Below, piece by piece: positions 1 through 40,050 of a DNA stretch of 64,000 nt. The DNA comes from Microglena sp. YARC (Eukaryota > Chlorophyta > Chlorophyceae > Chlamydomonadales > Chlamydomonadaceae). The DNA is taken from positions 19,438,925 through 19,502,924 of the forward strand of contig CM039466.1 of assembly GCA_022414725.1 (NCBI GenBank), written 5' to 3'. Positions within the stretch are counted from its first letter, which is position 1. Every line of letters begins with the position of its first letter. The position numbers were made by a program, and so were the translations under genes. The notes below the pieces were generated by a model. The model was not told the origin of the DNA and ran no database searches. It saw only the letters and a program-made list of their open reading frames with translations.

Positions 1-1143
1 TCACATGCAGCAAAACTGGTAAGGCTGGCCGACCCCCATCCAGGTGTGTGTTTGTGTGCGTGTGTTTGTGTGTGTGTACTTCACATGCAGCCAACTGGTA
101 AGGGCTGGCTGGACCCCATCCTTTAGGTGTGTACTCACTTCTTTCCTGCTATCTTCTCCCCCCACCCCCACCCACCCGCCCCCCCCTTCGCGTCCGCTTC
201 CTCATCCCACTCATGTCCCTCCCTCCCAATATCCCACACCCACCTCCACCCCACCACCCCTGGTGTCCCTTACCCTTACCCCCCACACATACGCACACTC
301 ATATCCCTTACCCGTTACCCCCCCACATGTCCCTTAACCCCCGCCCCCCCCCTTTACTCACGCCCGCTTGCCTTACCCCAACCATGCACCTTACCCTTAC
401 CCGCCCCCCACCCCGCACACACACACACTCACGTCCCTTACCCTGCCACCCCATGCCCTTACGCCTTACCCCCTACCCCGCTCATGCCCCTAAATCTTAT
501 CCCCACCTGCTCATACGCCCGTACCCTTCCATGCTTTCATGTACAAGAAACATGAAGTACAGTTTGTTGGAGCTTCTGCTCACATCCTCTCCCTCCAATA
601 CCTCCCTCACTCCACCCACCCACACCACCCCAACTGCTGGCTGCAAGAACATGAAGTACAAGTTTGTTGAGGCTTCTCTCACATCCTCTCCCTCCACTCC
701 CCTCACCCACCCACCCACACCCACTAGCTTGCTGCAGAACATGAGTAACAAGTTTGTTGAAGCTTCTGCTCACCATCTCTCGCCTCCACGCTCCCCTCAA
801 ACACTCACACACTCACACACATCTCTCGTCTCTTCTCATCTCTCGTCTCACACGACACACACAGTGACACACACGACTGCTTCTGCAGAACAGTGAGTAG
901 CAAGTTTGTCAATCTTCTGCTCACATTCTCTCCCTCCACCATCTCGCACATACACTCTCTCCACAACACACACACACACAAGCACGCACACACGCATACA
1001 CATCTCCCCCCCCCCCCCCCACCCCCCTTCACACACACACACACATACTCTCCCACCACCCTCCCTCCTACGACCTAACCATCCGCACGCGGACCACACC
1101 ACACACCCACACAACCAAACACCCCACACAACTGCTTATCCAG
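1..1143 (+). repeat. Pyrimidine/CA-rich tandem array carrying an exon-like unit (array A)
   Basis: The stretch is C/T- and CA-rich. It starts with two copies of an ~80-bp unit (near 1-50 and 81-130, sharing ACTGGTAAGG). From about 541 an exon-like motif recurs: acceptor-like CTGCAG or similar, then AACATGAAGTACAAGTTTGT and a Cys/Ser-codon-rich pyrimidine stretch. Copies lie near 541, 645, 733 and 886, and a fifth begins at 1144. In frame the motif reads NMKYKFVE. The spacers are ACACAC/CCCACC tracts. The long reading frames across this DNA come from the biased composition, so I do not call them genes. Confidence 0.7.
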
Positions 1144-1218
1144 AACATGGAGTACAAGTTTGTTGAGCTTCTGAGTTGTGGTTTCATCGCCTCCTCTGAG
1201 GAGGTTGTGAGGCAGCAG
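1144..1218 (+). CDS. 75-nt phase-0 internal exon of an unrecognised gene
   Basis: This is the best preserved copy of the exon seen in pieces on both sides. It is preceded by CTTATCCAG and followed by the donor GTGGGT. It holds exactly 25 codons, reading NMEYKFVELL then SCGFIASSEEVVRQQ, with no stop. Its 5' half (NMxYKFVE) is what array A repeats, and its 3' half (EEVVRQQ plus donor) is what array B repeats. It therefore looks like the parent exon from which both arrays grew. I do not recognise the family. The composition suggests an amphipathic helix, which is inference. It is probably part of one plus-strand gene with the exons at 5073 and 6393. Confidence 0.5.
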
Positions 1219-3962
1219 GTGGGTTGTAGCCTCCTCAACCTTTTTTGAATAGTGTGGTTACATTTGTACATTAAGATTACGAGTGAAGTTGCATTTAGTG
1301 AGTTACATTTTACATTTTTCAGAGTGTAGTTACATTCTTAACTTTTCGGCCGGTATTTCATATTAATATGGTATTCTTTTATGTATTGAGCTCTGACTTG
1401 GAATTCATCGCTCTAGATGAGATTGTGAGGCAGCAGGTGGGTTGTAGCTCCTGGGCTCAGTATTTAAATATTTAGTGTATCTATACTCACTCTCTCACCA
1501 CTCTCTCTCACACTCGCTCCTTGAAGCTTCTGGCTGTGGTTCATTCCTCCTATAAAGAGGTTGTGAGGTAGCAGGTGGGCATTGTAGCGCTCCTGGGCAG
1601 TACTTAACATTTTACGAGTGTATTTACATGTTTACATTCTAGAGTGTATTTACATGTTACATTCTAGAGTGTATTTACATATTACATTCCTAGAGTGGTT
1701 TACATGTTACCATTCCTAGAGTGTATTCACTTTTTTTTACATTTACGAGTGTATTCACTTTTTAACAATTTACGAGTGTATTCAACATTTTTACATTTAG
1801 AGCGTATTCATATTTTACATTCTAGAGAGTGTATTACATTTATTAGCAATTTTCTAGATGTACTTACATTTAATAAAAGAATCATTAAGTACATTTGAAT
1901 CCGAGTTGATTCGTTTAATGTACAAGGTATGAAGTTGAATATAATTGACATCACTATGTTTGCCTTCGCAATAATAAACAACTGGAGCAATAAAAACAGC
2001 TGTGAGGCTGCAGGTGAGTAGCCACCCATGGCTTTGAAGAGTGTAATTTATAGTTAAATGTACAAGTGTATGAAGTTGATAATTGAAATAAATATGTTTG
2101 CCTTCGCATAATGAACAACTGGGAGCAATAAAACAGGCTGTGAGGCCTGCGTGAGTAGCCCACCATGGCTTTTGAAGAAAGTGTATTTATAGTTTAATGT
2201 ACACAGATATGAAGTAGATATTGAATAATAGTTTGCCCTTCGCAATTTAATGAACACTGGAGCAAAAAACAGGCGTGAGGCTGCAAGTGACAGTAGCCAC
2301 ACCATGGGGCTTTTGAAGAGTGTATTTATAGTTTAATGTTAACAGGTGTATGAAGTTGATATTGATAGATATGTTTGCTTCGCAATTATGAACAACTGGG
2401 AGCAGATTAAACGGCTGTGAGGCAGCAGATGACTAGCCACCATGTTTTAAGAGTGTAATTTATTAGTTTAATGTACAAGTGTATGAAGTTGATATTTGAT
2501 AGATATGTTTGCTTCGCGTTAAGGCCTTATTTGGGAGGAGTAAAACAGATTGTGAGGTGCGGGAGATGGCCGTCCATGGCTTTGTAAAGAGTTTATTTAT
2601 AGTTTTAATGTGCCACGTTTATTAAGAAATTGATACCTGAGATGTTGAAATATACTGTTTGCCTTCTCGTCAAGGCCCTTACTGGGAGGAACAACATTAG
2701 GTTGTTGGGAGCAGCAGGTGGGTAGCCGGCCCATGGCTTTTAAATAGTGTATGTTTAGTTTAATGTGCACGTTATAAATTGATATTGATAGAATATGTTT
2801 GCCTTTTTGCATTACTGGGAGGAACAAGTCTATGCAGCCGTCGCGACGCGGAAAATTGGCGGAGTGTGTTGGCAACGGAACGAAAAGGTGGCAACGAACA
2901 TGGAGCTGACGCGAAAGCGAGTTAGTTCGCGACCAAGCATTGGATGACGTGTCAGGCTTCCAAGCAATTTTTTCGGTCGGACAGACGGTACAAATGGGTA
3001 AACATGGGGGCTCCCCGCCCCCTTAGAGGGGGGTCCGCCAATAAAAAAATAGGTTGTGAGGCGGCAGGTGAGTAGCCCCCATGGCTTTAAATAGTGTTTT
3101 ATAGTTTATATGTACAGTGTATGAATTGATATGATAGATATGTTTGCCTTCGTTGCCTTCCGCCGTTAAGCCTTATTTGGAGGAGTAAAAACAGATTGTG
3201 GAGGCGGCGGGAGAGTGGCCCCCATGGCTTTTAAATAGTGTATTTATAGTTTAAATGCACAAGCTCACTGGCGTACATTGATATATAATGGATTGCTTTA
3301 CAATAATGCCATTAAACAGGGAGGAATACAATAAATAGGTTGTGAGGCTGCTAGTGAGTTGGCCTCCATGGTTTTTAAAGAGGCGTATTCATAGTTTAAT
3401 GTAACAAGTGTAAAGGAAGTTGATCTTGATAGATTGTTTGCCTATGCAAGCAAAGGCCTTACTGGACAGGAATAATAAGAGGCTGTGAGTGGCCTGTGCA
3501 GTGAGGTGGCCACCAATGGCTTTAAAGAGTGTATTTATGGTTTAATTCAAGTGTATGAGTTGATATTGATACATTTATGTTTGCCTTCCTCCGCTAAGGC
3601 CTTACCTGGAAGGAATAATAAGAGGCTGTGAGTGGCCTGTGGCAGGTGTGTGGCCTCCATGGTTTTAAAGAGCGTATTCATAGTTTAATGTACAAGTGTA
3701 GGAAGTTGATAATTGATTATATATGTATTATATATACATACATATACATATTCATATGTTTGCCTTCTCGTTAAGGCCTTCCCGGAGGAACAACATAAAA
3801 GTTTGTGGGGCAAAAGCAGTGAGTAGCGCACCATGGCTTTTGAAGAGTGTATTGTAGTTTAATGTAAGCAAGTGTATGAAAGTTTCATATTGATATATAT
3901 GTTTGCCTTTGCGTTAAGGTTTACTGGGAGGAGTAAAAAACATGATTGTGAGGCAGCGGGTG
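1219..3962 (+). repeat. Tandem array of a 5' splice-site unit, ~135-150 bp period (array B)
   Basis: About 16 imperfect units. Each contains TTTGCCTTCG, GCGTTAAGGCCTTACTGGGA, a stretch ending TGTGAGGCAGCAG, then the donor-like GTGAGTAGCC, CCATGGCTTT and GAGTGTATTTATAGTTTAAT. Donor-like junctions occur near 1219, 1436, 1576, 2013, 2147, 2283, 2422, 2556, 2710, 3069, 3205, 3344, 3494, 3640, 3813 and 3958. The unit matches the 3' end of the exon at 1144-1218 (GTTGTGAGGCAGCAG) plus the first ~90 bases of the following intron. Units differ by many small indels. One dispersed repeat interrupts the array at 2835-3050. Confidence 0.8.
2835..3050 (+). mobile_element. Dispersed repeat Y, copy 1 (non-autonomous element)
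   Basis: This segment does not fit the surrounding array. It matches, in opposite orientation, 62800-63033. Shared blocks include GGTGGCAACG, GCGAGTTA, GATGACGTGTCAGGCTT (here) against GCTGACGTGTCAGGCTT, TTTCGGTC, and a G/C-rich terminal hairpin (GGGGGCTCCC, then CCCCCTT, then AGAGGGGG). No coding capacity is visible. The class is unknown; it may be a MITE or a SINE-like element. Confidence 0.65.
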
Positions 3963-4919
3963 GAGTGGGCCTCTAAACATTAAAACCCCCTACCCCAACC
4001 CTCCTTTTTCTCTCTGCTCTCCACTTTTCACGCTCGCGCACGCGATATCGTACAAGCGTGATAGGCTCTAAACCTGAACCACCCCTTAACCCCTAACCCC
4101 CAACCCCCCCTTCTCTCTTCTCCACTTTTCAGGTTTTTTGCTATCGCTTACAGCGGTGATAAAGGCCTATAAACACTAAAAACCTTAAACCCCTACCCCC
4201 AACCCCCCTTCTCTCTCTTCTCTCCACTTTTCAGGTGACTATCGCTTACACGTGATAAAGCCTATACACACTAAAAAAACCTTAACCCCTACCCCCACCC
4301 CGCCCACTATCTCTCTCTCGTCCACTTTTCAGGTTTGCTATCGCTTACAATGTGATGAAGTCTCTAAAACCCCTAAAAAACCCCTTAACCGCCCTACCCC
4401 CAAGCCCCCCCTTCTCTTTCTGCACTTTACAGGTGAGATATCGCTAGAGTGTGATGAAATCTCCAAACCCTAACCCTGACCTCCCCCCCCCCTCTCTCTC
4501 TCCACTTTAGGTGAGCTGACGCTAGAGTGTGATGAAGCCTCCAAACCCTAAACCGCTAAACCCTGACCCCCCCCTCTCTCTCCACACTTTTAGGGTGAAG
4601 CCATCGCTACACGCGTGATGGAAAGCCTCCAAACCTAAACCCTTAAAACCCTGAACGCCCCCCCTCTCTTCTCCTCCCACTTTAGGGTGAGCTATCGACT
4701 ACAAGCGTGATGAAGCCTCTAAAACCCTAAAACCCTGACCCTCCCCCTCTCTCTCCTCCACTTTAAGTGAGCTATCGCTACAGCGTGATGAAGACCTCCA
4801 ACCCTAAACTAAACCCTGATCCGCCCCTCTCTCATCTCCACTTTAAGGTGAGCCTAATCGCTACAGCGTGATGAAGCCTCTAAATCCTAAAACCCTAACC
4901 CTACCCCTCTCTCTCTCTT

Positions 4920-4954
<35 letters not shown>

Positions 4955-5400
4955 TCTCTCCACTTGTCACCAGGTTGAGCTGCCGTTAACAGCATGATGA
5001 AGTCTCTAATCCCTAAAACCCTGCCCCCTCCGCCCCAAACCCCACCCTCTCTCTCTTCTGCCACTTTTCAAGGTGAGCTAATCGCTACAAGCGTGATGAA
5101 GGCCAGGCTGATGCTGATGCAGGCAACCCCTTGGCCGACATCAACGCGCTTGTTTGAGGATAAAGCAACCCTGAGTCTAACGGCTGCAGCGTGATGAAGG
5201 ATCTAAAAACCCTAAAAACCGCTAGAACCCCTAAAAACTAATTGCCCTACCGCCTCCCCACCCGCCCCCCGCCAAAAAAAAAACTCCCTCCTCTCCAACT
5301 TTTCAAGGTGAGCTAACCCGCTACAGCGTGTGAAGGCCAGGCTGATGCTGATGGCAGGCACGTTCTGGCGGACATCATGCGCTTGTGAGGATAAAGAAAC
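3963..5400 (+). repeat. Tandem array of a 3' splice-site unit, ~80-100 bp period (array C)
   Basis: About 13 units. Each has a CT-rich tract ending in CCACTTTTCAG, then GTGAGCTATCGCTACAGCGT and GATGAAG, then CCTCTAAACCCTAAAACCCT and C-runs. The order (polypyrimidine, CAG, short coding-like block) is that of an intron acceptor plus the first ~27 bases of an exon. The block is followed by CCCTAAA-like spacer. Two units near the end (5073 and 5309) carry a longer exon-like portion. Junctions lie near 4035, 4134, 4234, 4333, 4431, 4509, 4594, 4687, 4769, 4850, 4974, 5071 and 5308. Confidence 0.75.
5073..5157 (+). CDS. Full-length copy of the array C exon
   Basis: After the acceptor-like TTTTCAAG the sequence extends past the short array block to about 5157. 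A second copy lies at 5309-5395. Read in one frame, with a single-base correction taken from comparing the two copies, it encodes GELSLQRDEGQADADAG followed by NALADINALVEDK, an acidic helical-looking segment. The alternative frame (VSYRYSVMK) is also open over the short block. Both copies contain indels, so the true frame is uncertain. I infer it to be an internal exon of the same plus-strand gene as 1144-1218. Family not recognised. Confidence 0.35.
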
Positions 5401-6450
5401 GCGCTAGTCTGCTTGCCTACAGCTTCAGAGGACCCCCCCTAGGATGCCTGGAGCTGTGCCCTCCCCTGGTTCTGGGGGAAAGCCCTTTAAATAGTAGCAT
5501 CGCATTTGCTGTACTTCCGAATTGTATCATCGCATGCGTTGCATTGATTTGTGTGATATCCCCCTTAAGATTCCTGCAGCTGCGCCCTCCCCTGGTTCTG
5601 GGGGCAAGCCCTTCAAATAGTATCATCACATGTGCCGTACTTTTAAAGAGTATTATCACATGTGTTGTACTTCCAAATAGTTATCCCTGCGTTTGCATTG
5701 ATTTGCGTGATTGCCCCCCTGGGAATGCCTGGAGTCTTGTGCCCCTCCCCTGGTTCCGGGGGCAAGCCCCTCCTAAATAGTATCATCACATTTGTTGTAC
5801 TTTTAATAGTACATCAATGTGTTGTACTTTGAATAGTATCATCAGACAAGTGGTGTACTTCCAAATAGTACCAATGGTATGCGTTGCATTGATTTGCATG
5901 ATTGCCCCATTCAGAATGCCTGGTGCTGTGCCCTCCCTTGTTCGGGGGCAAGCCCTTCAAATAGTATCATCATTAATGTGCTTGTACTTTTAAATAGTAT
6001 CATCACAAAGTGTTGTAACTTTCAAGTAGTAATCATACCCGGATGTGTTGCATTGATTTGCGTGATTTGCCCTTAGGATGCCCTGGTGCTGTGCCTCCCC
6101 TGGTCCGGGGAGCAAGCCTTTCAAAATAGTATCATCACATGTGCTGTACTTTAAATAGTATCATCACTGTGCTGTACTTTCCAAATAGTAACATCGCATG
6201 CGTTGCATTGATTTGCGTGATTTCTCCTAGGATGCCTAAGCTGTGCCCTGCCCCTGGTTCTAGGGAAAGCCCTATCATCAGTATGTGGCTGTACTTTTAA
6301 AATACCGGTAGTTAAATCAATCAACATGTGTTTGTACTTTCAAAATAGTATCATCGCATGTGTTGTATTGATTTGCGTGATTTGCCCCTTAGGATGCCTG
6401 GTGCTGTGTCTTCCCCTGGTTCCGGGGGCAAGCCCTTCAAATAAATAAAT
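5401..6450 (+). repeat. Tandem array of a terminal-exon unit, ~140-185 bp period (array D)
   Basis: Seven units begin near 5421, 5564, 5713, 5891, 6066, 6223 and 6386. Each has TTGATTTGCGTGATTTGCCC, an acceptor-like CTTAG, then GATGCCTGGAGCTGTGCCCT, GGTTCTGGGGGCAAGCCCTT, CAAATAG, then AT-rich blocks TATCATCACATGTGCTGTAC repeated two or three times. The layout is acceptor, short reading frame ending in a stop, and 3'-UTR-like sequence. Degenerate fragments (GCCTTCACATAGTATCATCA) continue to about 6870. Confidence 0.8.
6393..6444 (+). CDS. Candidate last exon of the array gene (final array D copy)
   Basis: After GCCCCTTAG the frame reads MPGAVSSPGSGGKPFK and stops at TAA (6442-6444). Most other array D copies keep the same PSPGSGGKPFK-stop reading with TAG. 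A short Gly/Pro/Ser-rich C terminus after an acceptor-like site is a reasonable last exon, and the following sequence is AT-rich like a 3' UTR. This is an inference from layout. The family is not recognised, and which of the seven copies would be used cannot be told. Confidence 0.35.
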
Positions 6451-6459
6451 ACATGATGT

Positions 6460-6670
6460 ACATTTTGACAAGGTGTGGATGGAGGGGAGGGGGGCAGGTG
6501 GTGACGTGGGAGGGGGGGGGCAAGGTATGTGGAGGTTGGAGGGGGGGGGCAGGTGGAGGGGAGGGGCAGTAGTGGAGGTAGGGGGAGGGGGAGGAGGTGG
6601 ATGGGGAGGGGAGCAGTAGGTGGAAGGTGGAGGGGGGCAGTAGGTGGGAGGAGGAGGGGGAGGGGAGCAG
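6460..6670. repeat. Purine (GGA/GGGG) tract
   Basis: A ~210-base G-rich tract of GGAGGGG, GTGGAGG and long G-runs on the plus strand. It has four-G clusters that could form G-quadruplexes. It lies directly after array D. The proline-rich minus-strand frames over it are compositional. Confidence 0.8.
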
Positions 6671-7730
6671 CCGTTTCATTGCACTGAAGCCAACCACCAA
6701 AGCCTTCACATAGATACACATGTGCTGTACATGTACTGTCATGAATTGGCGTGCCTGTTGAGGGAAAGCCTTCACATAGTATCATCAACGTGCTGATGTA
6801 CTGTCATTGGAATTGGCAGTTCCCTTGTCGGGAGGCAAGCCTTCAGAATAGTTATTACATGTGTTGTCTGTACCCGCCTTTTGATTGCGATGTGCTCCAC
6901 TTAAATCGAGGAAGATAGCGGATCACATATTATATTATGATACCGTTACATTAGCATTGCATTACATTACGTATTACATTGCATTACATTACTGTATAGA
7001 CAGGCCATGGGTGACCCAAGGCAGGCCGCTCCCACAACACCCCGGTGGTCTTCCAACCATCCCGTATCTGGTTTTTTTCAGCATGGATGCAGCCCCCCCC
7101 TATGCGGCACAACCCAGGGGGTCTTCTAAAATCCTCACAATCACTTGGGTTCAAGCGATAAAGCAACGTGGACGGAGAAATAATTGCGTACTGTGGCTGT
7201 ACCGCTCCGCTAACTTGTGTTGTGGAGAGTGAAAGAGTGAACTTCCTTGTTGAGGTGTGAGGTGCCCTTTTTGAATGCTGTACTGTTGTGGCCTTCGGCG
7301 AGGGGTTCCTTGTGTCAGTGTATGTTTTTTAAACATTAATTATACTAAACCCCCGGGAGCTGATCACCAAACCCCCCAGGACTGATCACTAACCCAGGAC
7401 ACATCGCACTCGCGTGTCTCCTCAAAAGCGCTGAGTATGTTTAATGTACGGCTATGTAAGCGTTTATAGGCTTTGGGCAGCGGAATGCTAGGAGAGATCC
7501 CCAAATACGTATTTGATCAACATAGAATGGCATATTTTAATGTTATATACTTTGTGGATTCAGGATTGGATCAGTGGTTTTTCTTACCCAGATGAGGTGA
7601 TGATTTATATCATCTTGTAGAATAAATCATTATTCAGTAGCACGATCAGGCCCCTGTCGGATTAAAACGATTGTTACGGGGTTCAGGTTTCATCACAATA
7701 CCTTTTTTGTTATCCCTTGCTCTATCAGCT
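6671..7730. other. No gene recognised; ATTAC-rich patch
   Basis: Decayed array D pieces run to ~6870. An ATTACATTGC-rich patch lies at 6945-6996, resembling the (ACATT)n tracts at 49.2 and 55.9 kb. From 7000 to 7730 there are only short frames with no recognisable domain. A GGGAGCTGATCACCAAACCC / AGGACTGATCACTAACCC direct pair is at 7353-7396. Confidence 0.4.
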
Positions 7731-18867: not shown

Positions 18868-19551
18868 TCAAGTTGGTTTCGGAGAGAACCATTTAACATC
18901 CCTTTTGAGTACTCCGGGAAAGATAACTTTATAAATAAGCAATCTAACCGCCGTGTCGTATGCGTCGAGTGCGATGGGTTGGTGATGGGCCCGTTTTTTC
19001 GACGTACGTCGGGACATAACGGGCGTAACACGTGATTTCCATGCATCGACGACGTGAGGCGCACTTTTCTTGACCACTTTGGCGAGTTCCCAAGTGTCTT
19101 GCTCAATACCGAAGTCTTGCCATCGGGCCAAGTATTCGAGACGCCGTTTGCTGGAAGTGCCTATGACACGCGATTTCTCGCGCATGATGCATTGGATATT
19201 CCAAATCGGAGCGCCGTCGGAGTCAAACTCCAGCGGTTGTCCAACATGGACAAAGCCATCGGAGCGCCAATGCTTTATCAAACCCACGTGAAACACGGGG
19301 TGGATACGCATCATCTTGGGCAAAGCCAAGCGGCACGCCGTGACTTGCCGGACGACTCCGGTGACCTCGTCGCGTGGACCAATGCATTCCGTAATCGTAT
19401 AGGGGCGAACAAAACGAGGCGTACATTTTGGTTTACCCGTTGCTTTGAACTTCATATTGCGGGTGACAAGAAACTTTATCCCAAGGTTGAAGAAAACCTC
19501 CGTACGTCGCTTATCGTAATGGGCTTTCTGCCGATCTTGAGCGGCTTGCAT
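18868..19551 (-). pseudogene. Integrase C-terminal domain with chromodomain (nested copy)
   Basis: A 227-codon minus-strand frame starts inside integrase (MQAAQDRQKAHYDKRR) and runs through the GPY-like block (FVRPYTITECIGPRD), LPKMMRIHPVFHVGLIKHW, and a chromodomain (RRLEYLARWQDFGIEQDTWE) to a Lys/Arg-rich tail. Chromodomains of chromoviruses bind modified histones and steer integration; that role is known for the family and not shown here. It is separated by frameshifts from the integrase core upstream (19552-20600). The longer tail beyond the host copy's stop (DAWK) reflects loss of the stop codon. Confidence 0.85.
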
Positions 19552-20600
19552 GCATGCCTTGCATTGATCTTGTCGTTCAATGTGATCGGCCCACCAATTG
19601 TTGGCAGCCGGACATTTCGATTCGACCTCCGCTTTAAGCGGCGTCGTAGGGTCGTAACCAAGGTACGCCCGAAATGGGGTGTTCTGAATGGACTATTGGT
19701 AGGAATTGTTTATTGCAAATTCCACCAGCGCCAAGGACTTATCCCAATCGTCGTGGTATGGCCCCACGTAGTGGCGAATCATGTCCTCGATGACTCGGTT
19801 CATGCGTTCCGTCTGACCGTCAGTTTGAGGATGAAACGCAGTCGAAAACGCTTGTCGCGTGCCCATTAATCGATGGAGAGCCACGCGAAATGCCGGTGAA
19901 TTGCGCATCGCGATCACTCAGGAGTTTCTTTGGGATACCATGATTAGCGGATGACACGATTCAGGTATAGGGAAGCGAATTCCTCTGCGTTTTATCGTAG
20001 TATGACAAGGTTCGACATGAACCATTTTTTGACAGTTTGTCGACGAATACCGCGATGGTATCATGGCCAGAAGACGTAGGGAGAGCGCCGTGATGAGGTC
20101 CGTGGAGACACACTCCCAGAATTTCTCAGGAATTTCCACGGGAACCATGGTACCGTTAGCTTTGCGTTTCCGGGCTTGTTCGTTTGGCACTTATGGCATT
20201 GTTGGACGAAGGCAGTAACATCTGCCGTGACTTTGGCCCAAGTAAAAGTGCGGGTGACCAACTCCCAATGTCTTGGTTCGACCGCAATGGCCCATGTACA
20301 TAGGGTCGTGAGCTTCGCGGATAATGTCCAGGCGAAGGGCTGCGTCAAGGGGACACACAAAAACTCGCGTCCGTACTTGTTCTTCTTGAACCAGTAACCG
20401 TTTCCTGGAAAACTTTATCGCGGAGGCGCTTGCAGCCCGGCGTGAAGTTCGAGTCTCGTTTGTATCCAGCCAAAATTCGATCCATGATGGACGAAGAGGA
20501 GGGAGTCGACGCAGCGGGCGTATGCCGACTGCGCGTCGTCGCGTTTCCTTGACCGGAACCCGAAGTATGGGGAGGACAGTCGGTGGGCGGGGAAGGATAT
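19552..20600 (-). pseudogene. Integrase zinc finger and core (nested copy), frameshifted
   Basis: Pieces in several frames: 19693-19917 (FSTAFHPQTDGQTERMNRVI, with the catalytic Glu region), 19918-20190 (STDLITAL with the first Asp; HVEPCHTTI), and 20191-20600 (HDPMYMGHCGRTKT and the Cys pair of the zinc finger). At least three one-base indels relative to 28985-29734 break it, e.g. an extra T in TTTTATCGTAG and extra Ts at about 20029. Confidence 0.85.
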
Positions 20601-21712
20601 CCACGACCGCGGGACCGACTGCAATAGGGCGCTGCTTTCTCGATCGAGGCCTGCATTCGCTGACCAAGAGAGAGAAAACTAACAGCTGGTGCGGCAACCG
20701 CGACGTCGGCGGGGGCAGAGAGGTTAGGATTGCGACTGACCGGGTCTGCCATATTATTGCGACCCGCGCGATTATTCCAAGTATAGCTGAAGGGCGCCAG
20801 GTCTCCTGCCATCGGCCCATTGCGTCGTGAAAGGACCGCCTTGGTGTCAAAATACGTGAGCGGATTGTGTCAGTGACCAATGTCATGTGGGAACCTTCGA
20901 GGTAGTATCGCCACTCGGTCAACGCGTGAACGATTGCTAGCATCTCTTGTTCCGTCGTAGTATAGTTCAGCTCCGCTGGGATATACTTCCTTGCTGGCGA
21001 AGGCGATGGGGGTGTTTATCTTGCAAGAGCACCGCGCCGGTACCGAGCAAAGATGCGTCGGTAATGACTTCGAAAGGTTTGCTGAAATCCGGCAGCGCGA
21101 GGACTGGAGCGGATAGCAAAGCTTCTTTGAGGCCTTTGAATGAGACGAGATGTTCTTCTTTGAACAAGGAGCCTAGTTCACCCTTGATGTTAGACAAGGT
21201 TTGAAGCAGGGCAGCGAGAGACAATAGCCTTGGATAAATTTGCGAAAATAATTGCACAAACCGAGGAATGAGCCATCTTTTTCGCCGTTTTCGGAGTAGG
21301 CCAGTCACGGACTGTGCTAACCTTGCGTGGATCAACTTTAATTCCGTCGCGTCCAATGTAATGACCCAGGAATTTAACTTCCGTTTTGTTGAAGGAACAT
21401 TTGGAGAGTTTCGCGTAGAATTCGTTGTCCTGGAGGACCTTGAGAACCGTGGCCAAGTTGGCTAAGTGCTCCGCCGGAGTGCGTCCGTAAACCAAGATAT
21501 CGTCTAAGTAGACCACGACGAACTCGTGCAAGTAGGGGCGCGAATATTTGGTTCATGACCGCTTGGAATGTGGCCGGCGCGTTTGCCAAACCCATCCCAA
21601 GGACTTTAAATTCAAACTGACCCATTGGGGTAGTGAACGCAGTCTTCGGCGCGTCCTCGTCCGAAATTCGTATTTGGTAATAACCAGACGTGAGGTCTAG
21701 GGAACTGAACAA
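20601..21712 (-). pseudogene. Reverse transcriptase palm to RNase H (nested copy), frameshifted
   Basis: Frames at 21374-21712 (SSLDLTSGYYQIRI, AFTTPMGQFEFKVLGMGLAN), 21190-21531 (VVVYLDDILVYG with the YxDD motif, then thumb), 20967-21356 (connection, [13 protein letters not shown] of RNase H) and 20345-20943 (EWRYYLEGSHMTLVTD, RAGRNNMADPVSRNPN) together cover what is one frame in 29746-32586. The breaks are single-base insertions or deletions. Confidence 0.88.
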
Positions 21713-21740
21713 AGTAGCTCCACCTAGACGATTAATGGTC

Positions 21741-23519
21741 TCATCGATACGGGGAAGGGATACCTATTTTTAATCGTGATGTTGTTGAGTGCTCGCCAAT
21801 CGCAAACAACACGGTATCCCGTTCACCCGGTTTCGCTATGATCATAATTGGCGCACCGTACGGGGACGAGCTCGGGGCGATGAATCCTTGCTGCAACAGG
21901 TCGGAGACGTATTCCTCACATAGTAAAGTCTCGGCTGGACTCATGCGACGATTTCTGCGATATGGTGCGTAAGCATTGTCTTGCGTTTTGATGACGTGAG
22001 GTATAACTCGATGGTTAGGAGTCCCCATAGGCAAATTGTTGAAGACTTTGCGATACTGCCATAGGAGAGCGCGCAGGTCGTTGGCCGAGATGAGTGTTTT
22101 ATCATCGTGGTCCCGTATGTTGTCGCGGATCCAATTTTCGAAATCCATGCTTGCCACCGGGGGACCAGGTAAAGGCCCGTCGGAAGGCAATAATTTCGTC
22201 AGCAATTTCGCCTGTTCATCGGCAGTTACGTTAGACGCCGGTAAATCCGCTCGGGATTCGCGGACATTGACCATGACATGGTTAGCGCCAGCTTTCAAAA
22301 GCTTTGCTGCCTTGCGAGTAATGACTGGGTCGTCAGTCGACTTGCCCGAAAGTGCCATAGTGAAGAAGGAATGAGCCGTTTCGTCCCGCTGCCTGTTTAT
22401 AGGTGTCAAACAGCAGCCGTACCGTTTGAGCGACAATGTCATGCGATCGTAGTCTAGGACGGCCTTTTTGTCGCGCATCCAGTCGGATCCGAGGATTAGG
22501 TCTAATCCTCCGGGAAGTTTGTCAACGACATGGGCGAACACTTTGCCAACATATCGTTGTATGTGTATAGGGAGCAAGACCGTCCCGCGGATTTTGATAA
22601 TCCCGTCGTTAGCGGCAAGTGAATTCCGTCGTGTTCGTTTTCCAAGGGCGGATGTGCAAACCGAGATCCTCAGCCGTTTGCTTTTCCATAAGACAACCTG
22701 TCGCGCCGGAGTCTGCCAATGTGAGTAATTGCTTCGCTCCTGATCGGGCGTTGAATAGCATATCGGGGCAGCAGCGGAGTTGACTTCGTATACCCGATTG
22801 GCTCGCGTCATGAGCACGGGGGAAGAATTCGTATTTCGTTGCGCGTGATTGCGCCGGATGCACTTCGTTGACCGTCTGGCAGCGATTTGTTTTACGCGAA
22901 CTTTGGGATCCAATGCCTCCGACCACCAGTGTTTTTTTCGACGGGTTTCAACCGGACTGGGGATGCCCTCCTCAGGTGCGGGGCCAAAGTATACTGCCTT
23001 GGTCACGTCGTTGATCGCATGCCAATCCTTTTTGATTTGGACGGCCCGTTCGGAGTCGGGGGGGTCATACCATACTTGGATGGCGACCTTATTCGAAGGT
23101 GACCCCTTGGGGCGGGGTTTCATATGGTGATCGCACGATTGATACTCCTTGAACAACTCCATACCTTGTAGGAGACTGGAGACATGTTTATCGTTACTTG
23201 CGTTTTTCGGGAGGATGAACATACCGGATGTGTCGAAGGGTGCATCGTTTTTGCATTCCCAATAGTGTTCTAACACCGACACGACGTCTTCCGGAATGGG
23301 GTGAGCGTATATGAACTCGTTTGCGATGGAGACACACATGCCAAACTCCGTAGAGAACTTCAGTGGACAAGGGGACGACAAGGTATTAGTAGAAGTTACA
23401 TCAATGGTTGGGGTTAAGCCCAAGTTAGAAAACAGTTCCTCTTGAACTTGTAACAAGAGCTCAAGTGGCTCGACTACTACTACTTTATCGCCGCTAAGTA
23501 CACGATCTAGGGTTGTCAA
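21741..23519 (-). pseudogene. Pol N-terminal part with protease (nested copy)
   Basis: 592 codons, MTTLDRVLSGDKVVVVEPLE to the RT fingers. A one-base loss in a G-run near 22767 shifts the frame, and an extra base near 22612 restores it. The ~50 codons between, including the DSGATG protease active site present in the sister copy, are therefore read out of frame. A further indel near 21830 ends the frame early. Confidence 0.85.
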
Positions 23520-23537
23520 TACCTGACCGGCCGATTC

Positions 23538-26500
23538 CTATTCCCAAATCGGGATGGGACCGTTGCCATCAAGGGCCCAGTCGAGACACGTAGTCTCATT
23601 GAGGGCCGGCCAGTTAGGCAAGTCCCGCGTGCGGCAGCGTCCGTCAGCATTCAGCGACCGCACACATGTCCTCATGTAGCGGAAGCAGAAGAAGCAGCGA
23701 GCACCATTCTGAAGCCAGATGGTCTGCCCGACGCTGACCGATTTGTTCATATGCATGGCGTTCTGGGGGTCTTGACCCGAAAAGTCAGGGGTCCGCGGCC
23801 CGCTAGGCTGTGAACGGCCCCGACCAGCACCCTGTCCGTATCCTCCGCGACCACCACGGCCCGCGCCGCGGCTAATAGAGCCTTTCCCGAACGTGCGATC
23901 AGCACCTTGCAAACTGAGGACCTGCGGCCTTGGCGATCCACCCAGCTTGCCGTTGTGCGCCGGCTGCGTCGCACTACGTCCTCCACCACCTCGGCCACCG
24001 GCCGGGTTGCGACTACTGTTTGGCGCCAGCTTGGGCTCTTGGCTGGGCGAGAGTTCATCTCCCCGCCGTCGTCGGTGGCTACTCCCTGCGAAGAGAAAGA
24101 ATCAGGGTCAGAATCGGAGGGGGGTGAGTTGGTAAGCTGGACGCGATTGAATGCAAGGTCCTTACCCGGGTATTTAGTATCCGCGGGGCGCTTGAATGGG
24201 TACCTCGACTTTTGGTTAGCGTAACCTCCCCTCTGATGTCGATCGTGCTTGTCCGTCAAGGACTTGCCACGAGCGGCGACAATCTTCCTCGCTTCGTCCA
24301 ATTGCAGATAGCGGAACAAATCCTCCATTGTTTCGAACACAGTACGTACCCGACTCGCGCCGAGAGTGTGCACCGGCGCGGAGTTCATCGGAGAGTACCG
24401 TGCGAAACAAGTTTAACTTTTCGCGCTAGGTGAGCTCGGGGACTTTGCGAAATTCAGACTTGATGGCGTGGTAATAATTTTTTCAAGGAGCGCTTATCTT
24501 GGCGGAAGCCACCTTCGTGTAGTTTGGTGAGAGCGACGTGTGATTCCGTTAATAGCTCGGGCAGGAGGAGCGCCTCCGCCCATGCGACGATTCCCATGAA
24601 ATCTAACCCGTCCAACTCATCGCTAGCCATGCCTCGTCGTAAGTGATGCGGAGTTGGCCCGTAAAAGCGCCCGACAGGTGTGGAACAATGCGCTCGAACG
24701 AACCAAGGTACCCGTCGGAGAACTGGAGCTCCATGATCGTGACCATATTGAATACCCATCGGCGCAACTGAGCTCTAGTGCATCTGTCCGACAGTTTGTG
24801 TTCAATGAGGCGTAGTTCCTTTCTCATTTCGGTAACACGCTTGGCGAACCCAGTGTCGTGATCAGAGTGACGAGTGGCGCGGTTATCGGGAGGAGGGGTG
24901 ATTGGCGGTAGCGAGACGGGGCTCACCTGGCGGGCCTGCCGGGGCCAGGTGTGTGCCCTCGCGAATCTGTCGCGTCGGAGAAGGGGCGTCTGCGGGCAGC
25001 GTAGCTGCGCGCTTTGCACGAGGGCGAACAGCGGCCGGGGAAGCCACCGTAGGTACTGCGGGCGTTGTTGGGTGCTCGGGCTGCGTAGCCCGAGGAGCGC
25101 GATTAGAGGTCGGGTCGACAGGTGGAACTTGGAGGGGCGAACCTGGGGAATCGGCTAAGTAGTGGCCCGATGACGAGTGGTCGGAGACCGAAAAAGGGGC
25201 CGTCGGGTGGTGAGTGCGCGGCGGTAGGTGCTGGTCGGCGGGGAAGGGGTAGCGCCCCCCGCGGGATCGAACCGCGTTGCATTTTGCCAGTATGGCCACC
25301 CGAAGGGGCATAGACGTCGGGGAGGCGAAAGGGTTCTGGCTGAAACGCCGGGGCTACCTGAGCGACAGCTAGTTTATCAAACAACCCTGAATTCCCCGCA
25401 ACCCGCACCTGCCTGTCAGGTGCACGAGGCAGCGTCTCATCCATCTTGTCGTCATTGGCCTCCGCCGCCGGGTAGTGGGCCTTCAGCTTAGTGCCCTTGA
25501 GGGCGGCGTCCTTGTCGGCAATGTCTTTGATGTTCAAAGGCATCATTTCCATCCACTTTTGCTTTCGCATCTTGGACGCCGTGTACAAACGGGTCATGCT
25601 GTCGCGGAGATCAATCGACCGCTTGCAGCGTATCCACGATGTTCTCAGGATCGCATTCAAGGAGGAGGCTGTCAGCGTACGCGTTCATATGCACCGCCAA
25701 CTTGGCGTCGGCATACGGCGCTACAGGGTGGTCAGCGGAGTGGTAATGGATAAGACCGTCCGACTTCGCAGCCTTGGCAAAGGTGGGCGACGCCTTGATC
25801 TCGCGGCCGCGCAGAAACGCCAGCTTGCGCGCAGCGATGGCCTCCTGAGCGGCAGTGTCGTCCGCGCGAGCGGCCTGAGGAAGCGCATGCTTGCGCCCCA
25901 CAGTCCTGCCGTTCCCACACCCAACGTCGCGGGCACCGCTGGAAGAACCGCCAGGGTCCTCAGTGTCCATCGGCACAGTCTCGTTGCGCGCCACAGTAGC
26001 TTGGCTCGCCGCGATCATGGCCATGACATCAGCCATGGTAATGGCGGCGGGAGATGCAGCCGCGGGAGCAGTCATTGGGCGCTTGCCATAGGCGACGTTC
26101 TCGCGGGTCAGCTGCGCGACGACCTCAGTCAAGCGAGCGTTTTCCGCGAGAGCGGGGGCGAGCGCTGCATGGGGGGACAAACGTGGGGAGTTAGGCAATG
26201 GCGTCGGCAGATTGTGAAACAGTGTGCGACTCACGGGCAAAACATTGGGATGTGTAACCAATCGGGAAGGTGAGTCCTCAATATGGTCAAATGGATTGCA
26301 AATCGAGAAAGGCAGGTTTGTCCTATATTCGTCAGGCGTCAGACTGCGCTCACCTGCTTGAGATCGAGCAAGGTCGCCTTTAGCAGCCTTGAGCTCGGAC
26401 TCCTTAGTCGATAGCTCGATGCACAACAAATCCATGGCGGACCTTGAGGTCGCCGTGGCTTCAGTGAAAGCGGCCTGGAGGTCGGACATCCCTTGCAACT

Positions 26501-27118
26501 CTGAGCCAGAGCCTTGCCGAGTAAGTAGTGGTTTGTTCAACAGCTCTTGCCTCTCGGTAGGATCACCATTGGCCAATGCGGCCTCGGTAGCCGCGCTGGA
26601 GACGGCGAGGCGCTGCGTGAGGTCAGCGACTTCGGCGTCCTTAGGGGCTATCTTCGCCACAAACTGCTTGGTAAGGGCCGAGTTGGCGATGGAGGCCTGG
26701 TAGAGCTGCGCGCGGAGTTGTCCAATTTGCTCCGCCGCGATCAGGTGGTCACCCATGTGCTGATGACGCCTGCGCTCCGCGCCCGCTTCATAGCGAGCGC
26801 TGAGCTCCTCGAGGGAAGGCTCAGCCAGCGGCGTCGGCGTCGGCGTCGTCGTCGGGGCCATGCCCGCGCGCGAAGGCGAGGCAGCGGGCGGGGCACCCGA
26901 GGGTGCCGCCAGACCATTGAGGCCGTCAACCAGCGGTTGCAGCGTACCCACTGACACAGAGGGCCGCGCTTCGGCGGATGCGGACTCATCCAGCGTAGCA
27001 CCGAGCTCAGTGTCGGGCTTAGTGTCAGAAGACCCATCCCTTCGGGATTGGTGTCGACCACTGACATCGTAGGCTGGTCAGCCGCGTCGTCGGTTACCTT
27101 GGTGGATTTGTGGGATGC
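23538..27118 (-). pseudogene. Gag (nested copy), frameshifted
   Basis: Frames 25611-26957, 25103-25660, 24603-25019, 24454-24759, 23747-24388 and 23538-23912 follow in order and match the single gag frame at 33482-36187 plus its C-terminal continuation. Breaks include an extra A at ~25612 (ATCAATCGACC here, ATCATCGACC in the sister), a lost C at 26491 and a lost C near 27035. Confidence 0.85.
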
Positions 27119-27882
27119 CATTCTGCACAGGCAACAGAACAAGTCAGTAGGCTGGACAGGAATGAGTGGTGGGCGAGAGAGGGAGAATTACTCGCAACTT
27201 CAGGATGTCAAAATTCACCTGCCACAGGGACTACTAAATTTTGCGAGCGTAACGAGCTGATAATGCCTCAAGCGTAACTGTATATGACGCGTCCGTCCAG
27301 AATACGATGAGGGATAAAAGCACTGTAAAGGCACGAATCACAGGGAAACCAGGAAGGACAATCGACAAACCGAATTGCGCGACAGGATGAGCAAACGTGC
27401 AGGCGGAAAGCAACGAAGATGATGCAGCAAGCAGGAAGAGTCGCAGGGCAGGCTCGTGAAGTACGCTAATTAAAGCAAGTACGGCCTAGGTGGCCAAAGG
27501 AGCCAATGCTACCCAATAGATCAAACCCCGCTCCAGATGCTCGGGAAAGGAGCTTTAGAAGCTATGACCAAAAGGACAGGACGTGAATGCAAGAATCGAG
27601 AGCGTAGGCCATACAGGGGTCGGCAGGCTAGGAAAAGATGCCATGCAAGACAGGTCGCAGGCGGCCTAGGGCGTGTCGAGCCTGACAGGACAGTTAACTG
27701 CGAGAGCCTAACAGGCGCTACGTGTACTCGAAGCTTACAGGTAAGAGCAGGAACAGCGAACCGAAAATGCCAGAAAGCCGACAGAACGTCCTGGCGGGTG
27801 CGATTAAGTCGAAGAAAAATTCGTATGCGTGCGTATGTGTATGCGTGAGGTCCCTAAGGAACGAAACCAGCTCCGCTACCAG
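27119..27882 (-). other. Leader and primer-binding site (nested copy)
   Basis: About 760 bases between the gag start (MASHKST) and the 5' LTR. The PBS (27858-27881) is separated from the LTR by one base. No long ORF in sense orientation. Nearly identical to 36188-36952. Confidence 0.8.
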
Positions 27883-28227
27883 TGTAACAGCTCTGGATGC
27901 ACTCAGCAGCCTGGGGAGTTAAGCTAGGGGAACAGCCTATGTGATGTATGTTTATGTGTAGTCGATATGCGTAAGCTAGCAGAACAGTAGGGTGTTATCT
28001 AAGTATGGGATGTAAAGTTGATCGGGAAGAACGTCTTCGTGAAGGAGTAGAAGGGTTCGTCCCGAGTAGCTCGTGTCTATGTACGCAACGTGTGCGTTGT
28101 GAGAGATGAGGCAGTACATGGGTATGGTACTGTATCATGTGCGTTCGTCACGTGGCTTACGGGTAAGGTGTACCCGTATGCCTTGCTGGAAGGCCAGAGT
28201 ACCCGTGAAGGGTTCTGTACCGTTACA
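27883..28227 (-). repeat. 5' LTR of the nested element
   Basis: TGTAACAGCTC...CCGTTACA on the plus strand, 345 bp. It is followed by the second CGTAC target duplication (28228-28232), and then the host integrase resumes with CACGACGATTGGG. Confidence 0.95.
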
Positions 28228-28980
28228 CGTACCACGACGATTGGGATAAGTCCTTGGCACTAGTAGAATTTGCAATCAACAATTCCTACCAAGAGTCCAT
28301 TCAAAACACCCCTTTCGGGCGTACCTTGGCTACGACCCTACGACGCCACTCATGGCGGAAGTCGAATCGAAATGTCCGGCTGCCAACAATTGGTGGGCCG
28401 ATCACATTGAACGACAAGCTCAATGCAAGGCATGCATGCCAGCCGCTCAAGATCGGCAGAAAGCCCATTATGATAAAAGACGAACGGAGGTTTTCTTCAA
28501 CCTTGGTGATTAAGTTCTCTTGTCCAGCCGCAATATGAGGTTCAAGGCAACGGGTCAACCAAAATTTACGCCTCGTTTTGTTGGCCCTTATACGATTACG
28601 GAATGCATTGGTCCACGCGACGAGCAAACTGGAGACGACTGGAGTCGTCCGGCAAGTCACGGCGTGCCACTTGGCTTTGCCCAAGATGATGCGCATCCGC
28701 CCCGTGTTTCACGTGGGTTTGATCAAGCATTGGCACTCCGATGGCGTTGTCCATGTTGGACAACCGCTTGAGTTCGACTCCGACGGCGCTCCGATTTGGA
28801 ATATCCAATGCATCATGCGCGAAAAGTCGCGTGTCATAGGCACATCCAGCAAACGACGTCTCGAATACTTGGTCCGATGGCAAGACTTCGGTATTGAGCA
28901 AGACACTTGGGAACTCGCCAAGGCGGTCAAGAAAAGTGCCCCTCACATCGTCGATGCATGGAAATGACGTGTTACGCCCG
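28228..28980 (+). pseudogene. Host integrase C-terminus and chromodomain, first copy
   Basis: It continues the host frame interrupted at 18415: YHDDWDKSLALVEFAINNSY, the GPY-like block, and the chromodomain EYLVRWQDFGIEQDTWE, ending ...HIVDAWK-stop (28967). Internal frameshifts exist (e.g. between 28300 and 28520). At about 28980 (GTTACGCCCGG) the host sequence stops and minus-strand integrase sequence begins. In the second copy (38049 onward) the host instead runs on to its polypurine tract and LTR. Confidence 0.88.
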
Positions 28981-28984
28981 GGAT

Positions 28985-29734
28985 ATCACTCAGGAGTTTC
29001 TTTGGGATACCATGATAGCGGATGACACGATTCAGGTATAGGGAAGCGAATTCCTCTGCGTTTATCGTAGTATGACAAGGTTCGACATGAACCATTTTTG
29101 ACAGTTTGTCGACGAATACCGCGATGGTATCATGGCCAGAAGACGTAGGCGGGAGCGCCGTGATGAGGTCCGTGGAGACACACTCCCAGAATTTCTCAGG
29201 AATTTCCACGGGAACCATGGTACCGTTAGGCTTTGCGTTTCCGGGCTTGTTCGTTTGGCACTTATGGCATTGTTGGACGAAGGCAGTAACATCTGCCGTG
29301 ACTTTGGCCCAAGTAAAAGTGCGGGTGACCAACTCCAATGTCTTGGTTCGACCGCAATGGCCCATGTACATAGGGTCGTGAGCTTCGCGGATAATGTCCA
29401 GGCGAAGGGCTGCGTCAAGGGGGACACACAAAAACTCGCGTCCGTACTTGTTCTTCTTGAACCAGTAACCGTTCCTGGAAAACTTATTGCGGAGGCGCTT
29501 GCAGCCCGGCGTGAAGTTCGAGTCTCGTTTGTATCCAGCCAAAATTCGATCCATGATGGACGAAGAGGAGGGAGTCGACGCAGCGGGCGTATGCCGACTG
29601 CGTCGTCGCGTTTCCTTGACCGGAACCGAAGGTATGGGGAGGACAGTCGGTGGGCGGGGAAGGATATCCACGACCGCGGGACCGACTGCAATAGGGCGCT
29701 GCTTTCTCGATCGAGGCCTGCATTCGCTGACCAA
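28985..29734 (-). CDS. Integrase, N-terminal and core part (second tandem copy), truncated
   Basis: This is an open frame from pol continuing through the zinc finger (HDPMYMGHCGRTKT, QCHKC) and the core with the first Asp (STDLITALPP) and the second (KKLLSD). It then ends at the duplication junction near 28981, so the third catalytic residue and the chromodomain are missing. Integrase cuts target DNA and joins the element's ends. This copy cannot encode a whole one. It follows the RT/RNase H frame with a one-base shift at ~29750. Confidence 0.85.
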
Positions 29735-29745
29735 GAGAGAGAAAA

Positions 29746-32586: not shown

Positions 32587-32604
32587 TACCTGACCGGCCG
32601 ATTC

Positions 32605-33457
32605 CTATTCCCAAATCGGGATGGGACCGTTGCCATCAAGGGCCCAGTCGAGACACGTAGTCTCATTGAGGGCCGGCCAGTTAGGCAAGTCCCGCGTGCG
32701 GCAGCGTCCGTCAGCATTCAGCGACCGCACACATGTCCTCATGTAGCGGAAGCAGAAGAAGCAGCGAGCACCATTCTGAAGCCAGATGGTCTGCCCGACG
32801 CTGACCGATTTGTTCATATGCATGGCGTTCTGGGGGTCTTGACCCGAAAAGTCAGGGGTCCGCGGCCCGCTAGGCTGTGAACGGCCCCGACCAGCACCCT
32901 GTCCGTATCCTCCGCGACCACCACGGCCCGCGCCGCGGCTAATAGAGCCTTTCCCGAACGTGCGATCAGCACCTTTGCAAACTGAGGACCTGCGGCCTTG
33001 GCGATCCACCCAGCTTGCCGTTGTGCGCCGGCTGCGTCGCACTACGTCCTCCACCACCTCGGCCACCGGCCGGGTTGCGACTACTGTTTGGCGCCAGCTT
33101 GGGGCTCTTGGCTGGGCGAGAGTTCATCTCCCCGCCGTCGTCGGTGGCTACTCCCTGCGAAGAGAAAGAATCAGGGTCAGAATCGGAGGGGGGTGAGTTG
33201 GTAAGCTGGACGCGATTGAATGCAAGGTCCTTACCCGGGTATTTAGTATCCGCGGGGCGCTTGAATAGGTACCTCGACTTTTGGTTAGCGTAACCTCCCC
33301 TCTGATGTCGATCGTGCTTGTCCGTCAAGGACTTGCCACGAGCGCCGACAATCTTCCTCGCTTCGTCCAATTGCAGATAGCGGAACAAATCCTCCATTGT
33401 TTCGAACACAGTACGTACCCGACTCGCGCCGAGAGTGTGCACCGGCGCGGAGTTCAT
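32605..33457 (-). CDS. gag: Gag C-terminal region, RGG-rich, in two overlapping frames
   Basis: Frame 32966-33457 (MNSAPVHTLGASRVRTVFET ... Ser/Asp-rich, then NPAGGRGGGGRS) and frame 32605-33066 (GRGGRGGYGQGAGRGR, then CFFCFRYMRTC with further Cys downstream) overlap. A single-base shift near 33000 would join them. The RGG-type glycine-arginine stretch is a likely RNA-binding tail. The classical CCHC zinc knuckle is not seen; the only Cys cluster is CFFC...C...C. It ends with a stop at ~32605, just ahead of pol. Confidence 0.7.
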
Positions 33458-33481
33458 CGGAGAGTACCGTGCGAAACAAGT

Positions 33482-36187: not shown

Positions 36188-36952
36188 CATTCTGCACAGG
36201 CAACAGAACAAGTTAGTAGGCTGGACAGGAATGAGTGGTGGGCGAGAGAGGGAGAATTACTCGCAACTTCAGGATGTCAAAATTCACCTGCCACAGGGAC
36301 TACTAAATTTTGCGAGCGTAACGAGCTGATAATGCCTCAAGCGTAACTGTATATGACGCGTCCGTCCAGAATACGATGAGGGATAAAAGCACTGTAAAGG
36401 CACGAATCACAGGGAAACCAGGAAGGACAATCGACAAACCGAATTGCGCGACAGGATGAGCAAACGTGCAGGCGGAAAGCAACGAAGATGATGCAGCAAG
36501 CAGGAAGAGTCGCAGGGCAGGCTCGTGAAGTACGCTAATTAAAGCAAGTACGGCCTAGGTGGCCAAAGGAGCCAATGCTACCCAATAGATCAAACCCCGC
36601 TCCAGATGCTCGGGAAAGGAGCTTTAGAAGCTATGACCAAAAGGACAGGACGTGAATGCAAGAATCGAGAGCGTAGGCCATACAGGGGTCGGCAGGCTAG
36701 GAAAAGATGCCCATGCAAGACAGGTCGCAGGCGGCCTAGGGCGTGTCGAGCCTGACAGGACAGTTAACTGCGAGAGCCTAACAGGCGCTACGTGTACTCG
36801 AAGCTTACAGGTAAGAGCAGGAACAGCGAACCGAAAATGCCAGAAAGCCGACAGAACGTCCTGGCGGGTGCGATTAAGTCGAAGAAAAATTCGTATGCGT
36901 GCGTATGTGTATGCGTGAGGTCCCTAAGGAACGAAACCAGCTCCGCTACCAG
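36188..36952 (-). other. Leader and primer-binding site (second tandem copy)
   Basis: Same as 27119-27882 apart from isolated changes (e.g. T for C near 36214, one extra C at ~36710). PBS complement at 36928-36951, one base from the LTR. Confidence 0.8.
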
Positions 36953-37297
36953 TGTAACAGCTCTGGATGCACTCAGCAGCCTGGGGAGTTAAGCTAGGGG
37001 AACAGCCTATGTGATGTATGTTTATGTGTAGTCGATATGCGTAAGCTAGCAGAACAGTAGGGTGTTATCTAAGTATGGGATGTAAAGTTGATCGGGAAGA
37101 ACGTCTTCGTGAAGGAGTAGAAGGGTTCGTCCCGAGTAGCTCGTGTCTATGTACGCAACGTGTGCGTTGTGAGAGATGAGGCAGTACATGGGTATGGTAC
37201 TGTATCATGTGCGTTCGTCACGTGGCTTACGGGTAAGGTGTACCCGTATGCCTTGCTGGAAGGCCAGAGTACCCGTGAAGGGTTCTGTACCGTTACA
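36953..37297 (-). repeat. 5' LTR, second tandem copy
   Basis: Apparently identical to 27883-28227 and again followed by CGTAC (37298-37302) and host integrase. This copy has no partner LTR of its own, because the tandem unit starts inside integrase. Confidence 0.93.
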
Positions 37298-38037
37298 CGT
37301 ACCACGACGATTGGGATAAGTCCTTGGCACTAGTAGAATTTGCAATCAACAATTCCTACCAAGAGTCCATTCAAAACACCCCTTTCGGGCGTACCTTGGC
37401 TACGACCCTACGACGCCACTCATGGCGGAAGTCGAATCGAAATGTCCGGCTGCCAACAATTGGTGGGCCGATCACATTGAACGACAAGCTCAATGCAAGG
37501 CATGCATGCCAGCCGCTCAAGATCGGCAGAAAGCCCATTATGATAAAAGACGAACGGAGGTTTTCTTCAACCTTGGTGATTAAGTTCTCTTGTCCAGCCG
37601 CAATATGAGGTTCAAGGCAACGGGTCAACCAAAATTTACGCCTCGTTTTGTTGGCCCTTATACGATTACGGAATGCATTGGTCCACGCGACGAGCAAACT
37701 GGAGACGACTGGAGTCGTCCGGCAAGTCACGGCGTGCCACTTGGCTTTGCCCAAGATGATGCGCATCCGCCCCGTGTTTCACGTGGGTTTGATCAAGCAT
37801 TGGCACTCCGATGGCGTTGTCCATGTTGGACAACCGCTTGAGTTCGACTCCGACGGCGCTCCGATTTGGAATATCCAATGCATCATGCGCGAAAAGTCGC
37901 GTGTCATAGGCACATCCAGCAAACGACGTCTCGAATACTTGGTCCGATGGCAAGACTTCGGTATTGAGCAAGACACTTGGGAACTCGCCAAGGCGGTCAA
38001 GAAAAGTGCCCCTCACATCGTCGATGCATGGAAATGA
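37298..38037 (+). pseudogene. Host integrase C-terminus and chromodomain, second copy
   Basis: By eye identical to 28228-28967. Chromodomain RRLEYLVRWQDFGIEQDTWE near 37927-37985, ending DAWK-stop at 38037. Unlike the first copy it continues into the genuine host 3' region (TATGTCCCGACGTACGTC...) and LTR. Confidence 0.88.
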
Positions 38038-38274
38038 CGTGTTACGCCCGGTATGTCCCGACGTACGTCAAAAATACGGGCCCATCACCCACCCATCGCA
38101 CTCGACGCATACGACACGGCGGTCAGATTGCTTTATTCATAAAGCTATCTTTCCCGGAGTACTCAAAAGGGATGTTAAATGGTTCTCTCCGAAACCAACT
38201 TGATTCATCAAGTATATTTTGAGCACGGCACATACGACTACGACTGGTATTCACATCCCACTTCCTTACGATCA

Positions 38275-39619: not shown

Positions 39620-39651
<32 letters not shown>

Positions 39652-40012: not shown

Positions 40013-40050
<38 letters not shown>

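Follow-up and report, generated by a model that had tools for sequence, protein, structure and literature searches.

The locus considered here raises the question of why the exon ends of one gene should each lie in a tandem array of its own, and whether splice junctions themselves are the preferred sites of amplification. The window, by which we mean the whole analysed stretch of 64,000 nucleotides of the green alga Microglena sp. YARC (C5:19438925-19502924), belongs to a genome assembly of 568 Mb in 2390 contigs, C1-C6 of which range from 18.6 to 194.9 Mb. Its location in the interior of a 46-Mb scaffold ruled out that it might be the end of a sequence, although an N gap is close by. A preliminary description had noticed four successive arrays at its left end, repeating exon parts in gene order. 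This order was reproduced by edit-distance search and TRF, and the assignment of the arrays to one gene is supported by an exon chain that aligns with SAS6-like homologues. Only the tail of a fifth array, Z, had been visible to that description. The features are listed below, negative positions being those to the left of the window.

-2787 to -1788: scaffold gap of 1000 N, left of the window
-1778 to 132, plus strand: array Z, 79-bp unit in 24 copies, 3′ end of exon n-2 (MQPTGKA..LDPIQ) with donor GTGTGTG
542 to 918, plus strand: array A, intron 3′ end (acceptor) with the 5′ part of exon n-1, 4 copies
1144 to 1218, plus strand: exon n-1, complete, 75 nt, phase 0, SAS6-like NMEYKFVELLSCGFIASSEEVVRQQ, placed by homologue alignment
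1419 to 3967, plus strand: array B, 3′ part of exon n-1 with donor (CAG/GTGGGT or GTGAGT), units of about 140 bp, about 11 copies
4122 to 5158, plus strand: array C, acceptor with the 5′ part of terminal exon n, units of about 80-100 bp, 11 copies
about 5306 to 5494, plus strand: terminal exon n, SAS6-like VSYRYSVMKARLMLM...LQLQRTPPRMPGAVPSPGSGGKPFK followed by a stop, placed by homologue tblastn
5564 to 6443, plus strand: array D, last codons of the terminal exon, stop and 3′-UTR, 6 copies, without a splice acceptor

The tandem arrays at this gene are real, and every exon end lies in its own one: repeats of acceptor and exon 5′ part precede the true exon, and repeats of exon 3′ part and donor follow it. 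Copy numbers of all five arrays were obtained by edit-distance search, in which none of the ten shuffled queries per array matched in the case of Z, A, C and D. With B, four of its ten shuffled queries produced one match each, so that one of its 11 copies may be due to chance. Unit lengths differ from array to array, as was originally noted, with TRF periods of about 90-99 bp for A, 138-143 bp for B, 80-100 bp for C and 160-191 bp for D. Array Z enters the window with its right end only (1-132), and the full exon n-2 lies outside. Its match to the end of the preceding exon of homologues (...MQPTGE(A)RLDFIQ/NMEYK) was read by eye, and its copies are one base short relative to the homologue frame. 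Scanning of the window against Rfam at gathering scores gave no matches.

By homology a SAS6-like gene (PF16531) is predicted to have its 3′ end at the left end of the window. The complete exon between arrays A and B, already recognized in the preliminary description, is real and aligns with SAS6-like proteins. Joined over the intron to the terminal exon it aligns through the junction to PDB 9y9z, a SAS-6 N-terminal-domain protein (E=1.9e-6, residues 1-49, a single one-residue gap past the junction). A large database search with the joined chain gave 78 homologous proteins. PF16531 was found in 75 of them, all with E<=1.1e-6, and the remaining three (E from 4e-3 to 2e-2) had no Pfam family. 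Identity to 12 aligned homologues was 50-69%, Chlamydomonas sp. UWO 241 being the nearest of the 12 (69%), and according to this alignment the exons join in frame. For the peptide alone no Pfam family scored; exons further upstream are outside the window and may lie in the gap or beyond it. A genome search with the same peptide returned four matches at E<=1, all at this locus, and no unamplified paralogue was found.

The right part of the array succession requires another reading than that proposed initially. Arrays C and D had been assigned to separate exons, whereas both flank one terminal exon, traced by homologue tblastn from ...VKARLMLM... to ...LQLQRTPPRMPGAVPSPGSGGKPF; an intron between them was ruled out, as the homologues run through. 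The last codons, stop and 3′-UTR ascribed to array D stand, but its supposed acceptor CCTAGGATG encodes PPRMPG and must be coding, because the homologue tblastn runs the terminal exon through it. The segment 5061-5158 is only the last copy of array C, longer than the others yet still truncated, and the true exon start was counted separately at 5296. The true exon end, at 5438-5494, is likewise outside the six copies of array D. Frame changes within 5306-5494 fit indel errors and were ascribed to sequence error.

Such errors make it necessary to consider whether noisy long reads, mis-assembled at a contig end, could have invented the arrays. Apart from the nearby gap, this artefact would be in line with the indel-rich divergence of the region: in self-comparison, paired repeats within 549-6441 have 0.36-1.55 indel events for each substitution, while most pairs to the right of 16.6 kb show 0.00-0.20. 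Higher values were obtained there for a 9-kb pair (1.95) and for some arrays that are rich in CA/GT or very similar (0.29-0.47). At the SAS6-like exons gap openings per substitution reach 0.40 against 0.08-0.10 in the kinesin, Cpn60/TCP1 and CAX copies described below. Given the indel-rich divergence and the 1000-N gap, roughly the left 16 kb appears to be a low-quality consensus, which would inflate the divergence of copies. However, an assembler is blind to exon polarity, and identical architecture is present in clean sequence on several scaffolds. Sequence error thus accounts for raggedness in part, and perhaps for copy numbers, but not for the arrays themselves, and their origin as an assembly or sequencing artefact is very improbable.

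Between the segment 8549-8892, taken as an LTR, and 38312-38658 there are 13 substitutions and 19 gap openings, while the pair 27883-28228 / 38659-38311 has 38 substitutions and 5 gap openings. At 44253-45102 a 29-bp unit is present in 29 copies that differ almost only by substitutions, which contrasts with the indel-rich arrays at 1-7000. Two adjacent 9.07-kb copies (19913-28981 and 28985-38051) have an identity of 99.34%, their alignment showing 20 substitutions beside 39 gap openings, and bear an LTR-retrotransposon with RVT_1 and RNase H at 29746-32604. Their differences are mostly indels, and the pair is either a recent tandem duplication or an assembly duplication. A chromo/Tf2-1-SH3 piece (18868-19692) is located just to the left of this pair, and about 10 units of the plant-type telomere-like motif CCCTAAA form an interstitial tract at 39161-39232.

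The same architecture was found in a neighbouring gene. On the minus strand left of the gap lies a gene for a CAX-type cation/proton exchanger (homology match with E=1.4e-6; PF01699; EukProt gene24768-10410_t), in good sequence with 0.096 gap openings per substitution. Its five tested exons gave 18 local alignments of exon 5′ parts upstream and 32 of exon 3′ parts downstream, numbers in which short units can be counted twice, together with two internal pieces on matching sides and no wrong-side or whole-exon copies. One array of 108-bp units in about 40 copies consists, as judged by eye, of exon end and donor. The EukProt model lacks the second half of a CAX exon (EHSVAIIFAIKNKLEVTMGIVMG, window positions -13400 to -13558, minus strand); perhaps the arrays misled it. 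A CAX peptide also gave many weak matches to PsbL chains (E 0.0064 and above), which were taken as chance. Within the window, an array of 42-56 bp at 39634-40077, whose unit contains ...GAGACCTTCAGGGGTGAGTGTGTG and resembles an exon end with a donor, could be the exon-edge array of some further gene.

To see the generality of this pattern we sampled 26 conserved exons from family searches of the genome: 10 of 128 kinesin matches (ranks 2-11, rank 1 being left out for an internal stop), 12 of 64 for Cpn60/TCP1 (the best ones after omission of two near-full-length single-frame matches and six with internal stops) and 4 of 23 for P-ATPase. Copies were searched within 1500 bp on either side of each exon at E<=1e-5. 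They were found at 17 of the 26 exons (8/10 kinesin, 6/12 Cpn60/TCP1 and 3/4 P-ATPase), and at the other nine there were none within this distance. The 73 copies, which are local alignments and can include double counts of one unit in short-unit arrays, comprised 42 of exon 5′ parts upstream, 29 of exon 3′ parts downstream and 2 internal pieces downstream. No upstream copy of a 3′ part, no downstream copy of a 5′ part and no whole-exon copy was registered among them. Kinesin copies span the exon boundary, placed by hand, with intronic sequence on one side. Overlapping pairs of kinesin matches had the expected polarity in 10 of 12 cases, the other two, which pair partial copies with each other, being set aside. 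The two omitted Cpn60/TCP1 matches (C6:13962293-13963762 and C5:11283081-11284901) are nearly full length in one open frame, their relatives in the genome having many exons, and may be intronless genes or foreign DNA. The window contains, in addition, a two-exon gene similar to Ifi-6-16/ISG12 (PF06140; 46812-47052 and 49804-49907), whose spliced 114-aa product is identical to EukProt gene24842-10496_t; neither of its exons has local copies within 1500 bp.

Polarity of this kind is a property of exons, not of repeats in this genome as such. Local copies were found for 66 of 139 random pseudo-exons, and their 1722 copies fell into the allowed classes in 30% and into wrong-side or whole classes in 60% of cases. 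Upstream there were 266 copies of 5′ parts, 233 of 3′ parts, 273 whole and 89 internal, and downstream 233, 247, 297 and 84, respectively. In a set of 240 pseudo-exons 126 had local copies. Copies in allowed classes only were characteristic of 16 of the 17 copy-bearing exons and of 11 of the 126 copy-bearing random ones (p=3e-13). When flanks of kinesin exons were shuffled, 50 exon tests yielded five downstream matches of 3′ parts and five internal ones, and a few downstream calls may therefore be low-complexity matches. Comparison of exons with the flanks of other loci was discarded, since paralogy of the exons produced 51 matches in 90 pairs; shuffled flanks and random pseudo-exons took its place.

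The preliminary description had regarded amplification as centred on splice junctions. A process tied to splicing or transcription, such as R-loops or re-insertion of lariats or cDNA, would then duplicate junctions repeatedly, and the succession of amplified junctions in the SAS6-like and CAX genes looks like its trace. Yet exon edges lie inside local copies about as often as random points do (25/52 against 184/480, Fisher p=0.18; 20/44 with p=0.42 for a set of 22 exons alone). The 5′ edges alone (14/26 against 95/240) point towards targeting, though not significantly (p=0.21; p=0.67 for 3′ edges). The random background was drawn from 12 loci that differ widely in TRF coverage (2% to 81%) and is imprecise, so that a moderate excess at exon edges may still exist. 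Similar arrays, however, abound in random DNA, and array D is situated at a stop codon and 3′-UTR, where there is no splice junction. Based on the similar frequency of repeats at edges and at random points, local repeats are common in this genome and exons impose polarity on them; amplification targeted to junctions is distinctly unlikely.

Rows of look-alike sites often accompany the true splice sites. In the kinesin copies, with boundaries placed by hand, 23 of 27 acceptors still have their AG and 7 of 11 donors their GT, an uncertain boundary at one locus (L020) accounting for two of the four AG losses. Mean identity of these copies is 0.895 in the exonic and 0.840 in the intronic part. The abundance of intact decoys, together with the reading of array C as about TTTTCAG/GTGAGC, a sequence built like a recursive splice site, might indicate arrays selected to control the choice of splice sites or intron removal. 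But retention of both dinucleotides is near the expectation from overall identity (84-90%), GTGAGC in array C is nothing more than the first coding letters of the terminal exon, and local repeats are about equally common at random points. A functional role of this kind is extremely improbable, and the decoys, as far as these small numbers allow a look, seem neither purged nor specially kept. We infer correct splicing past them: the true exon would be recognized by exon definition, since decoy acceptors are not followed by a donor at exon distance, nor decoy donors preceded by such an acceptor.

Most probably, then, the arrays come from pervasive tandem duplication on a local scale, of which selection would have left only those events that do not change the mRNA. 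Arrays, their polarity, the absence of whole-exon copies from the sample, many intact decoy dinucleotides and a high repeat background are direct observations. Short segments of about 60-200 bp would often be duplicated in tandem in this genome. If one breakpoint is intronic and the other exonic, mRNA can stay unchanged provided that the innermost splice site is used, the true site probably being chosen by exon definition. Copies of intron end and exon start would accumulate upstream of the intact exon, and copies of exon end and intron start downstream. In the last exon the first stop codon would be used, extra copies turning into 3′-UTR. Duplications of a whole exon or on the wrong side would alter mRNA and then be removed, and the surviving arrays may expand by slippage or unequal exchange. 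The bolder proposition, in which mirages (as such arrays are called in lancelets) are a general gene feature here and junctions are preferred amplification sites or decoys act in splicing or seed introns and exons, is unlikely.

If the sampled rate holds, about half of the exon edges in this 568-Mb genome adjoin look-alike splice sites, sometimes dozens of them. This would provide a natural test of how the spliceosome chooses its sites (exon definition) and of arrays as a source of new introns and exons. Gene predictors may be misled by exon-edge arrays, and tandem copies of exon edges may make up part of intron growth in large algal genomes.

Known systems share some of these traits. Ordinary minisatellites and local tandem duplications have similar unit sizes and are abundant in random DNA of the alga, but the arrays at sampled exons are strictly polar and none contains a whole exon. 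According to the Rogers model, introns are reportedly gained by tandem duplication across AG/GT proto-splice sites, the duplicated exon piece making the new intron. The alga likewise has exon sequence duplicated in tandem together with splice signals; its junctions, however, have each their own array and unit, and a new intron is not implied. In Haematococcus short tandem repeats in complex patterns were reported, exon boundaries being unmentioned in the accessible part of that article (PMC7617258). Boundary arrays in an alga were not mentioned in the titles and abstract openings of the literature searched, mostly outside subscription journals. A precedent for the process that the preliminary description could not name is given by lancelet "mirages", which PMC3087553, where the Rogers model is also cited, describes for the globin genes BflGb6 (intron end with exon 5′ part) and BflGb9 (exon 3′ boundary) and for Adh3. 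Adh3 data and globin RT-PCR in that article suggest normal splicing, and PMC3902484 adds PGBD5 and troponin C to the lancelet examples. Both organisms have tandem copies of intron end with exon 5′ part or of the exon 3′ boundary, either boundary being affected; lancelet units are likewise of 10-160 bp and many copies keep AG/GT. In the alga, units of arrays Z, A, B and C and kinesin copies span an exon-intron boundary, and the kinesin copies often retain AG/GT. What sets the alga apart is the presence of arrays beside 17 of the 26 exons sampled, with copy numbers that reach dozens at a junction, and an array of stop codon and 3′-UTR. The arrays of the alga are thus a further case of the mirage structure, in which the lineage, the scale, the stop-codon version and the evidence against junction targeting are new.
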